44,133 nucleotides of DNA from Oscillospiraceae bacterium (lineage in GTDB: Bacteria > Bacillota > Clostridia > Oscillospirales > Acutalibacteraceae): contig JAITOD010000030.1 of NCBI GenBank assembly GCA_031290105.1, forward strand, positions 1 through 44,133, written 5' to 3'. The translations under genes and the position numbers were made by a program. The notes below the pieces were generated by a model. The model was not told where the DNA came from. It saw only the letters and a list, made by a program, of their open reading frames with translations, and searched no databases. Numbering within the stretch: position 1 is the first letter of the stretch; the number at the start of each line of letters is the position of its first letter. Positions 7,708-19,769 of this stretch are shown piece after piece.

Positions 7708-8772
7708 ATGAAAGGTTTTGGAATGTATTCGGTCGGCAACGTGGGCTGGATTGAAGCCGACGCACCCGCTTGCGGACCGCTTGATGCGCTTGTTCGCCCA
7801 ACAATCGTTGCGCCGTGCACTTCGGACACGCACATGTCCCACGGTGGCAGCGGACCGAAGGAGAACCTAATTCTGGGGCACGAAGCGGTTGGCGTCGTGA
7901 CGCAAGTTGGCGAGCAGGTCACGAATTTCAAGCCGGGCGACTATGTTGTTGTGCCCTGCTGTACGCCGGATTGGCTCGCGCCGGGTGTACAAAATACGGT
8001 CAGTTTTTCGCACGACTTGGGTCTCATGCAGAGCTTCAAGTTCCTGGGCTGCAAACACGGCGTGTTCGCGGAGCTGTTCCACGTCAACCAAGCGGACGCG
8101 AATATGGTCAAGCTGCCCAATGGCGTCAGCCCCGAAGCGGCGCTCATGACGGTGGATATGATGTCCACCGGATTCCACGGCGTTGAGCTGGCAAATATTG
8201 GTTTTGGCGACACTGTTGCGGTAATCGGCATTGGACCCGTTGGGCTTATGGCGGTGGCAGGTGCGGCACTGCGAGGCGCGGGGAGGATCATCGCGGTGGG
8301 CACGCGCCCCAACTGCGTCAAGATTGCCCGCGAATACGGCGCGACGGATATTGTCAGCTACAAGGACGGCGATATCGCGGCGCAAATCATCGCGCTCACA
8401 GGCGGCGGCGTGGACAAGACCATCATAGCCGGCGGCAACGCGGAAACCTTCGCTCAGGCAATCGCCATGACGCGCGAAATGGGCACAATCGCCAACGTAA
8501 ACTTCTTTGATGTGACGGAAACACTGGCTTTTCCGGCGTACCTTTGGGGGCTTGGCATGGCGAATAAGGATATCCGCGGCGGGTTCTGCCCGGGCGGCGC
8601 AAAGCGCATTGAGAAACTGCTGGCGCTGATTGCCGCGGGACGCATTGACACCACAAAGCTCATCACACACAGCTTCAGGGGCTTCGACAAAATCGCCGAC
8701 GCGTTCGCGCTCATGGATTCCAAGGCGCAGGACTTGATTAAGCCGATTGTTTATTGCGATGATTTAGCGTAA
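7708..8772 (+). CDS. adh: Zinc-dependent NADP(H) secondary-alcohol (isopropanol) dehydrogenase
   Basis: 354 aa from ATG 7708 (MKGFGMYS), with GAGGGG 9 nt upstream; the upstream ATG at 7654 lies within the promoter. It interconverts secondary alcohols such as isopropanol with ketones. It closely resembles Thermoanaerobacter brockii/Clostridium beijerinckii enzymes (KGF-M-S-G-VGWIE start). Catalytic zinc ligands are Cys37 (APCTSD), His58 (LGHEAVG) and Asp149 (DMMSTGFHG). The Rossmann segment is GIGPVGLMAVAG, and VGTRPNC is the NADP-preferring loop. The structural-zinc cysteines of horse-liver-type enzymes are absent, as in this subfamily. Likely monocistronic, with its own promoter and terminator. 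Confidence 0.93.
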   Translation: MKGFGMYSVGNVGWIEADAPACGPLDALVRPTIVAPCTSDTHMSHGGSGPKENLILGHEAVGVVTQVGEQVTNFKPGDYVVVPCCTPDWLAPGVQNTVSFSHDLGLMQSFKFLGCKHGVFAELFHVNQADANMVKLPNGVSPEAALMTVDMMSTGFHGVELANIGFGDTVAVIGIGPVGLMAVAGAALRGAGRIIAVGTRPNCVKIAREYGATDIVSYKDGDIAAQIIALTGGGVDKTIIAGGNAETFAQAIAMTREMGTIANVNFFDVTETLAFPAYLWGLGMANKDIRGGFCPGGAKRIEKLLALIAAGRIDTTKLITHSFRGFDKIADAFALMDSKAQDLIKPIVYCDDLA

Positions 8773-15244: not shown

Positions 15245-15273
15245 AGTATACCAGAATTTGCGCGGAAATGCAA
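15245..15273 (-). promoter_or_regulatory. Promoter of recA
   Basis: -35 TTGCAT (15273-15268), 17-bp spacer, -10 TATACT (15250-15245). No GAAC-N4-GTTC-type SOS box is visible in or around it. Confidence 0.75.
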
Positions 15274-15356
15274 GGCGGGCATTTGTGCGGGCAGCGGCGC
15301 TTCCCATTGCTTCGTTCTGCCGGGAGAAACATGAGCTTTTTGTATAGTTATCAGCG

Positions 15357-15566
15357 ACTCTAAGCAGCTGCTCTCACCAGCTGGTGAGATCAGCTGCTTA
15401 GAGTGAATATAAACAAAAATGCTGCAGTATTAACCCTTTTGTTTATCAATATTTTCAAAATTGTGAACGGGCTATAAAATCGCTGCGCTTAGCGCCTAAA
15501 AATCATCCGTATTTTAATTCGTGCCCGGTCGCTTGCTTATTGGAAAAATCAACGCATTGTGCCGGC
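15357..15566 (+). repeat. Hairpin-headed intergenic element, copy A
   Basis: 210 bp, repeated in inverted orientation at 19464-19674. It begins with a 48-nt hairpin: two 22-nt arms with one mismatch around AGCT, outer arm ACTCTAAGCAGCTG. An AT-rich, more divergent middle follows. The 3' part is nearly invariant: 40 nt ending GTTAATTCGTGCCC-like sequence (15487-15526) is identical apart from position, and then ATCAACGC-ATTGTGCC is shared. By hand alignment identity is roughly 85% over the first 170 bp. The copy ends 18 bp before the cysS -35 box. It has no terminal inverted repeats and no coding capacity. Confidence 0.85.
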
Positions 15567-15584: not shown

Positions 15585-15630
15585 TTGAATTTATCCGCCG
15601 TAAGGTGTATAATTATACCTTGTACGGCGG
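15585..15630 (+). promoter_or_regulatory. Promoter of cysS with palindrome across the -10
   Basis: -35 TTGAAT (15585-15590), 17-bp spacer, -10 TATAAT (15608-15613). The 8-bp arms CCGCCGTA (15595-15602) and TACGGCGG (15623-15630) flank the -10, with a smaller palindrome AGG...CCT inside, so a repressor could cover the promoter. Confidence 0.75.
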
Positions 15631-17279: not shown

Positions 17280-18347
17280 ATGGTGCGTAATATGGAACCG
17301 GACTTCGAAAACCGCATAATCGCCACCGAATACTCCGCGCAGGACGAGCCGACTGAACTGTCGCTTCGTCCGCGTGCTTTTGCCGAATACATAGGTCAGT
17401 CCAAGGTCAAAGATAACCTGGCGGTCTATATTCAGGCGGCAAAGGAGCGCGGCGAATCACTTGACCATGTGCTGCTCTATGGTCCGCCGGGCTTGGGAAA
17501 AACTACCCTTGCGGGCATAATCGCCAACGAGATGGGCGTACATTTCCGCGTCACATCGGGTCCGGCGATTGAAAAACAAGGCGATCTGGCAGCCCTTCTG
17601 ACCAATCTCGGCGAGGGCGATGTGCTCTTCATCGACGAAATCCACCGCCTGCAGCGCAGTGTTGAGGAAATCCTCTACCCCGCAATGGAGGACGGCGCGC
17701 TGGATATCATCATCGGCAAGGGTCCCTCCGCGCGGTCAATCCGGCTGGATTTACCGCACTTCACGCTGGTTGGCGCTACGACCCGTGCCGGTCAGCTCTC
17801 CGCACCGCTGCGGGACAGGTTCGGCGTGATTTTGCGCCTGGAGTTGTATTCTCCCAAGGATCTGGCGCGGATTGTCACGCGCTCCGCCGGGATACTTGAT
17901 ATTGCCGTCACGCCGGAGGGCGCAATGGAGCTCGCCTCCCGCAGCCGCGGCACCCCGCGAATCGCCAACCGCCTGTTGCGCCGTGCACGCGACTTTGCTC
18001 AGGTGCTCAACAGTGAGCAGGGCAACGCTGCGGCGACTTGCGAAATCACGCGCGAGAGTGCAAATAACGCCCTCACGCGCCTGGAAATCGACCACATGGG
18101 TCTGGATAACATCGACCGGATGCTCCTGCGCAGCATGGTTGACAGCTTCAACGGCGGGCCGGTGGGGCTGGAGACCATTGCGGCGGCAATCGGCGAAGAG
18201 GCGGTGACAATTGAGGACGTATATGAGCCGTACCTGATGCAGCTGGGCTTTTTGCAGCGCACGCCGCGCGGACGCTGTGTCAGCCCGGCGGGTTACCGGC
18301 ACTTGGGGTTGACCCCGCCTGGGCAGCAGACGTTTGATAATGTATAA
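17280..18347 (+). CDS. ruvB: Holliday junction DNA helicase RuvB
   Basis: 355 aa. AAA+ motor that drives branch migration with RuvA. Walker [10 protein letters not shown] (68-76), Walker B/DEIH (119-122), sensor GATTRAG, arginine-finger region LRDRFG, and the winged-helix C-terminus ending [12 protein letters not shown] are complete. ATG 17280 or 17292 could be the start; neither has a good Shine-Dalgarno site. ruvA and ruvC are not nearby, so this ruvB is separated from its usual partner. Confidence 0.96.
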
Positions 18348-18370
18348 TGGAGAGTGGATAATTGATAATG

Positions 18371-18411
18371 GGTGAAGCCCGGGGAAAACCGGCTTTGCTC
18401 TTTTATTTTTG
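18371..18411 (+). repeat. Direct repeat unit 1 (about 40 bp)
   Basis: GGTGAAGCCCGGGG... through GCTTTGCTCTTTTA, repeated 150 bp downstream with about three differences. Confidence 0.75.
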
Positions 18412-18520
18412 ACGTGAGGGAGACCGTTCCCTAAACCTTTAGGTTAACCTCTCCCTTAACCGTGAGGTTAACCGCGATGTACATTTCATCGCGCATTATA
18501 GACAAACAGCAAAATGGATA

Positions 18521-18560
18521 GGTGAAGCCCGGGAAAACCAGCTTTGCTCTTTTACTTTTG
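18521..18560 (+). repeat. Direct repeat unit 2 (about 40 bp)
   Basis: Second copy of the unit at 18371-18411; the two bracket the GGTTAACC-rich segment. Confidence 0.75.
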
Positions 18561-18687
18561 CCTAGATTTTCCAGAAACATGCTCACTCTGGATAGTTGAT
18601 AATTGATAATTGATAGTGGAGAGTGGATAATTGCCGAAATCACAACTTTGAGCTAAGCGGTCACAGGCATTGGAAAGATGCATTAAA

Positions 18688-19419: not shown

Positions 19420-19448
19420 AGTGTAACAGATTGTCCCCTTCCTGTCAA
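19420..19448 (-). promoter_or_regulatory. Promoter of the AceTr transporter gene
   Basis: -35 TTGACA (19448-19443), 17-bp spacer, -10 TACACT (19425-19420). Confidence 0.8.
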
Positions 19449-19463
19449 GATAAAAGTGCAGGC

Positions 19464-19674
19464 GCTGGCACAATGGCGTTGATTTTTTCAACATGCACGC
19501 GCTTGGGCACGAATTAAAATACGGATGATTTTTAGGCGCTAAGCATGGTGAATTTTATAGCTTGTTAACAATTGTAAAATATCGACAAATAAAACCGTTA
19601 ATTTGGAAGTATTTTTATTTATATTCACTCTAAGCTGCTGCTCTCACCAGCTGGTGAGAGCAGCTGCTTAGAGT
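19464..19674 (-). repeat. Hairpin-headed intergenic element, copy B
   Basis: 211 bp, inverted relative to copy A at 15357-15566 and of almost the same length. The 48-nt hairpin is at 19674-19627 (22-nt arms, loop AGCT, one mismatch at a different position from copy A), and the conserved 3' part ends at 19464. The element ends 15 bp before the -35 box of the AceTr promoter, the same relation copy A has to cysS. Confidence 0.85.
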
Positions 19675-19739: not shown

Positions 19740-19769
19740 TTGACAAGCCGCCCGCAAATGCGGTATAAT
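19740..19769 (+). promoter_or_regulatory. Promoter of holB-ricT
   Basis: -35 TTGACA (19740-19745), 18-bp spacer, -10 TATAAT (19764-19769). Confidence 0.85.

Follow-up and report, generated by a model that had tools for sequence, protein, structure and literature searches.

A dispersed palindromic intergenic repeat, probably mobile, in an Oscillospiraceae draft genome

Between recA and cysS in the genome of an Oscillospiraceae bacterium lies a hairpin-headed stretch of 210 nt (E1), which has an inverted counterpart (E2) between holB and a YaaH-like gene, the latter just below the Pfam cut-off. What kind of element does this pair represent? The window, the whole stretch of DNA analysed (44,133 nt), is one contig (C81) of a draft genome of 1,644,978 bases in 101 contigs, which is about 92.5% complete. 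In the following sections we describe the anatomy of the element, its copies and its setting, and weigh the explanations for it.

Anatomy and copies of the element

A search of the genome against itself joined positions 15357-15566 (+) to 19464-19674 (-) over 210 nt at 85% identity, exactly the coordinates given by the first-pass annotation, and a repeat finder placed inverted arms at 15357-15455/19576-19674 (87%) and 15476-15555/19476-19555 (85%). Both window copies have the 48-nt near-perfect hairpin that had been described, a zero-loop structure with 24-nt arms and one broken pair each. Their alignment also bears out the 40-nt identical block and the shared end; the middle, which had been called divergent, is less conserved but is not unrelated sequence. 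As had been reported, the element has no ORF of its own and no terminal inverted repeats, according to the repeat finder and the alignment of the E1 arms. The ends of E1, GGCAGCGG and CATTGTGCC, have only GGCA in common once one of them is reversed, and the arms, read outward, align with a score of 25 (the 99% level of shuffled sequences being 24) and not end to end.

The 210-nt element is real but is not the whole element, because it comprises only a palindrome (P) and one arm (B), and E1 continues leftward into a further arm (A). The complete arrangement is an A arm of about 67 nt, the 48-bp P and a B arm of about 162 nt, which gives E1 a length of about 277 bp. The A arm of E1 (15290..15356, +) is 84-86% identical to C15, C53 and C6, with scores of 60-74 where shuffles reach at most 33; the left end is placed only roughly, the matches stopping at 15285, 15290 and 15296 in three copies, and the alignment of E1 with C15 runs slightly past the arm, up to the -35 box. 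P of E1 occupies 15357..15404 (48 bp, one broken pair in 24) and is followed by the B arm (15405..15566, +), which ends in CATTGTGCC and, over 159-162 nt, matches E2 at 82% and C73 at 79% identity. For E2, the repeat finder, the copy search and the alignment place the B arm at 19464..19626 (-), next to P at 19627..19674 (one broken pair in 24); on its left side an A arm was not demonstrable from alignment scores against shuffles. A second hairpin suspected by eye within the B arm (E1 AAACAAAA/TTTTGTTT, E2 AAATAAAA/TTTTATTT) proved no better than shuffles. Elsewhere in the window, at 18319-18633, at and after the end of ruvB, there are repeat units of 46, 33 and 20 nt, two copies each, 149-269 nt apart.

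When the element, parts of it and the half-palindrome were used as queries, ten places were located in the genome (E1, E2, C73, C53, C57, C33, C21, C6, C47 and C15), all of them outside called genes. Three copies are cut by contig ends (C15 starts inside P, C53 breaks off after 57 nt of the B arm and C73 ends 19 nt past P), and ten is therefore a minimum. The family is thus not a pair, as first thought, but occupies at least ten places, and such dispersal rules out a local inverted duplication; the annotation had named this origin, together with a total of two copies, as the finding that would speak against mobility, and the mobile reading stands. The half-palindrome also has seven one-mismatch matches elsewhere in the genome.

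P is the sole part common to all copies. The A arm of E1 recurs in C15, C53 and C6, in C73 over its available stretch and, with weak similarity, in C33. The whole B arm is present in E1, E2 and C73, with only its first 15-57 nt similar in C53, C57, C33 and C47. An arm C replaces B in C21 and C6, which resemble each other over about 46 nt. Arms common to different places are about 80% identical. Two further candidates at C33, a block to the left of P resembling the B end (score 29) and an 11-bp inverted repeat around the copy (by eye), were set aside as unconvincing in view of how many comparisons had been made.

Constraint on the palindrome and its setting between genes

The folding energies of the two window hairpins as single-stranded DNA are -22 and -23.2 kcal/mol, where shuffles average -7.8 and -8.5 (z about -8), and none of 200 shuffles folded as well. 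They are the only hairpins in the window with arms of at least 17 nt (loop at most 12, one mismatch). The identical scan gave none in 311 kb sampled from one sister species (G001) and two in 223 kb sampled from another (G002). The latter, at L139 13128-13170 (arm 20) and 8402-8436 (arm 17), are each followed by promoter-like sequence by eye, and no second copy of either was found in the 223 kb.

The eight copies with a P of the same length carry zero to two changes from the consensus in 48 positions: P is perfect and identical in C57, C33, C21 and C6, has one change in E1, E2 and C73, and two in C53. Outside this set, C15 shows 27 nt of P and C47 has a longer version. Between arms, with gaps counted, 18-22% of the aligned columns differ over six pairs (three of B, two of A and one of C), and 19-22% in the B and A pairs compared with P. 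Fisher tests of P against arm differences, run on four pairs with copies in common, gave p values of 0.012, 0.0045, 0.0044 and 0.035. Because P has changed less than its surroundings, we predict that it is the working part of the element; its slow change can also reflect host function or the self-correction of palindromes. The most diverged copy, C47 (L014 1487-1546), has a palindrome lengthened by an extra inner stretch and still forms a 23-bp stem, in which one pair has changed from A-T to C-G and the two outermost pairs are a mismatch and a T-G. This single paired change can also have come from template-switch correction. The P consensus carries three evenly spaced CAGCTG sequences; as a special site this hexamer was rejected because it is not enriched, a 130-kb sample of the genome containing 89 occurrences against 83 expected.

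The other copies lie between genes for a sulfatase and a radical SAM-SPASM protein (C57), yajC and Sua5 (C33), cse1 and cinA (C21), RelA-SpoT and a zinc ribbon protein (C6), and an FAD oxidoreductase and rpsO (C47). C15 adjoins a gene for a FeMo-Co-type protein, and the neighbours that were read at C53 and C73 gave no Pfam match. We define the left side as that opposite B or C, with or without a demonstrable A arm. It faces a gene start in eight of the nine readable cases (C6 is the exception, and C73 is unreadable). B or C sides face a gene start in five of eight readable cases (E1, E2, C21, C6 and C47) and a gene end in the other three (C73, C57 and C33).

Predicted promoters adjoin both window copies. 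That of recA (15245..15273, -; TTGCAT-17-TATACT), a consensus reading below the scan threshold, is separated from the A arm of E1 by 16 nt, and that of cysS (15585..15613, +; TTGAAT-17-TATAAT) lies 18 nt beyond the B arm. The predicted holB promoter (19740..19769, +; TTGACA-18-TATAAT) is on the side of E2 opposite B, and that of the YaaH-like gene (19420..19448, -; TTGACA-17-TACACT) is found 15 nt beyond the B arm. A cse1 gene (type I-E CRISPR; L009 1-1194) starts beside the C21 palindrome, divergent from cinA, and the gap between these two genes contains two promoter-like TTGACA-17-TATACT sites.

Sister species and range

Neither the element nor the hairpin pattern has a match in the sister species G001-G004. 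The regions preceding recA in G001, G002 and G003 all keep CTTGCA and TATACT (this alignment left out G004), and the alignment fades past the -35 box; by eye, the gene adjoining recA differs among the sister species. The sole two-sided comparison of a filled with an empty site is the Sua5-yajC gap, which measures 371 bp here versus 79 bp in G002, with the yajC promoter kept. In the stretch examined yajC was not found in G003 or G004, nor was Sua5 found in G001. At holB the sister species keep the order holB-PSP1, and the YaaH-like gene was not found in the stretch examined. On the recA and Sua5-yajC comparisons, the element was probably gained beside pre-existing promoters in this lineage; at Sua5-yajC, loss in G002 is an alternative, a deletion there being possible because the two proteins are 72% and 82% identical. 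By eye, G003 has different interspersed hairpin repeats (of the GTAGGGGC type) near recA, Sua5 and holB (L095, L105 and L115). Their presence at the same three genes could mark hot spots of insertion or a host module that can be replaced.

The hairpin pattern was found in none of 397 other genomes sampled from the family, and the element, at E values up to 0.001, in none of 59 other relatives. A species collection, in which records of this genome or its nearest relatives are perhaps absent, gave one hairpin-pattern match (L017). We take it as unrelated: it has no second copy in its own genome and, by eye, lies after an open frame and continues as far as TAAACGC/GCGTTTA. Viral contigs gave no matches, and pieces of 26-54 nt in one plasmid record and three phage records (E 0.09-0.3) were attributed to chance. 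The nearest other protein to the YaaH-like neighbour is 74% identical, so that no second strain is evident there; the few names among its matches were Clostridia, Oscillospiraceae and one Treponema. A literature search, which most subscription papers lay outside, found nothing on this repeat family or its setting.

What the element may be

On balance we favour the view that the element is a species-restricted, non-autonomous mobile palindromic repeat with a YPAL-like anatomy, forming a dispersed non-coding A-P-B family. Its dispersal, the arms shared between places and the comparison with sister species all support mobility. The copies would have moved by transposition through a putative enzyme, the hairpin or cruciform may be recognised by that enzyme or by a host protein, and insertions would have persisted mainly where genes and promoters were spared. 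The presence of arm C in place of B in two copies would fit arms having been exchanged through recombination at P. No target duplication is visible by eye at E1, the sole copy in which both arm ends can be read, and the flanks of C33 and of G002 are too diverged for one to be read. Judged as a classical MITE, the family is short, gene-free and dispersed and lacks the terminal inverted repeats; judged in the manner of YPAL, it has an internal inverted repeat, lies outside genes and is dispersed.

A special case of the mobile repeat would be an element derived from IS200/IS605, or of the REP type, moved by a Y1 (RAYT) transposase. The hairpin, the extragenic position and the lack of terminal inverted repeats are all in keeping with this origin, yet we consider it very unlikely. 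The best Y1_Tnp match in this genome scored 7.6 bits (E 5.4), below the cut-off of 23, which 6 of 14 control genomes passed; as the draft is 92% complete, a transposase may be missing from it. The stem here is 22-23 bp versus 5-13 bp for REPs, as given in the available text of PMC3733652, and in the copies printed, by eye, C57 alone has a CGTC tag next to the stem and none has a GTAG tag there. The first-pass proposal of an IS200/IS605-derived miniature element accordingly survives in part: a mobile miniature agrees with the ten dispersed places, the absence of an ORF and the sister recA promoters without the element, but the ancestry is left with no Y1 match above the cut-off. No candidate for the mover was found in the genome, Y1 being the transposase family searched, and the longer, gene-bearing relative that the annotation had suggested looking for was not found.

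Could the element function as RNA? The RNA fold of E1 plus its A arm is more stable than those of shuffled sequences for both strands (z -3.5), an excess that is probably due to P; the inner B arm alone shows no such excess (z -1.5 and 0.0). A scan of the E1 region found three promoter sites versus 0.6 expected; two weak promoter-like sites (9/12) are inside the B arm, of which one is directed through P. A TAAAAT box accompanied by a weak -35 is also seen in both E2 and C73. The stronger predicted promoters of the neighbouring genes, however, lie outside E1 and E2, on both sides. Because of this flanking arrangement a structured RNA, whether leader or small RNA, is unlikely and not the equally good fit that had been suggested, although the weak promoter-like sites keep some probability for it. 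At the element Rfam gave no match at the gathering score, only hairpin look-alikes far below it. Bidirectional transcription terminators might be suggested by the strong stem, by a gene end on one side in C73, C57, C33 and C6, and by a single site resembling a terminator where the B arm of E2 ends (19461-19480; one found versus 0.4 expected). Like the promoter-like sites just named, this one is not strong. Against such a function, which we hold to be most improbable, neither strand of the copies printed has a T run after the stem, terminator scans made no call at P in E1 or E2, and none of the seven readable places is between convergent genes.

It is possible, as a tentative reading, that P acts as DNA upstream of promoters, where a putative host protein or cruciform extrusion would enable it to insulate or tune them. 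This is consistent with the lesser change of P relative to its arms and with the settings of the seven copies in which both neighbours are readable (four divergent, three tandem, none convergent). In four of the eight left sides with a readable promoter the -35 box is 83-86 nt from P (E1 84, C53 83, C57 86, C15 84), and on all three B-type sides facing a gene start it is at 179-188 nt (181, 179 and 188). The remaining left-side distances, however, are 66 nt in E2, 115 in C33, 20 in C21 (second site 136) and 56 in C47, and of the C-type sides C21 has a -35 box at 107 nt and C6 no clear one. The left-side cluster was noticed post hoc, with a simulated p of 0.003-0.026 depending on the range allowed, and the spacing partly repeats the nearness of the promoters because the arms have a fixed length. 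In addition, the neighbouring genes have no evident common theme, and the element is absent beside the conserved recA promoter of sister species. A mobile repeat and a promoter module are not mutually exclusive. P, as a cruciform or clamped by protein through its CAGCTG units, might serve as a portable promoter insulator that absorbs supercoiling between neighbouring promoters and has spread as a mobile element, a combination that we regard as doubtful.

Taken as a mobile palindromic repeat, the element can be set beside known families. Most small bacterial repeats have terminal inverted repeats, with YPAL and CIR listed as lacking them in the part of PMC2229807 available to us, and MITEs are mostly intergenic according to the accessible portions of PMC2229807, PMC10969869 and PMC3733652. 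The closest anatomy, by description only, is that of YPAL (RU-2, the Yersinia palindromic sequence), which has internal inverted repeats and which the same part of PMC2229807 describes as about 168 bp long, intergenic, without TA termini and with both filled and empty sites. It differs in that the present family has a zero-loop 48-bp palindrome and longer arms, whereas YPAL is listed there with an ORF and target duplications of 3-26 bp (PMC2229807). The Caulobacter intergenic repeat (CIR) is likewise similar by description, being a DNA motif without terminal inverted repeats (PMC2229807, in part) and strictly intergenic (PMC10969869, in part). Its ends, in the excerpted descriptions, consist of two stem-loops and TA termini, unlike the one palindrome found here. 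ERIC, RUP and Correia MITEs are also short, interspersed and chiefly intergenic, but the available text of PMC2229807 lists them with terminal inverted repeats, TA ends and target duplications; here no terminal inverted repeats were seen. REPs with RAYT share a palindromic and dispersed nature and differ in being 20-40 bp long, tagged GTAG or CGTC and mostly downstream of genes, the GTAG kind being linked to Y1 transposases (PMC3733652, in the sections available).

The family is ordinary in kind and somewhat unusual in anatomy. It is a palindromic repeat family, unfound in the other genomes and collections searched, in which a near-invariant zero-loop palindrome is combined with varying arms. 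If P is under selection in ageing copies, it would become testable whether such repeats become promoter-side DNA structures or persist by mobility alone.
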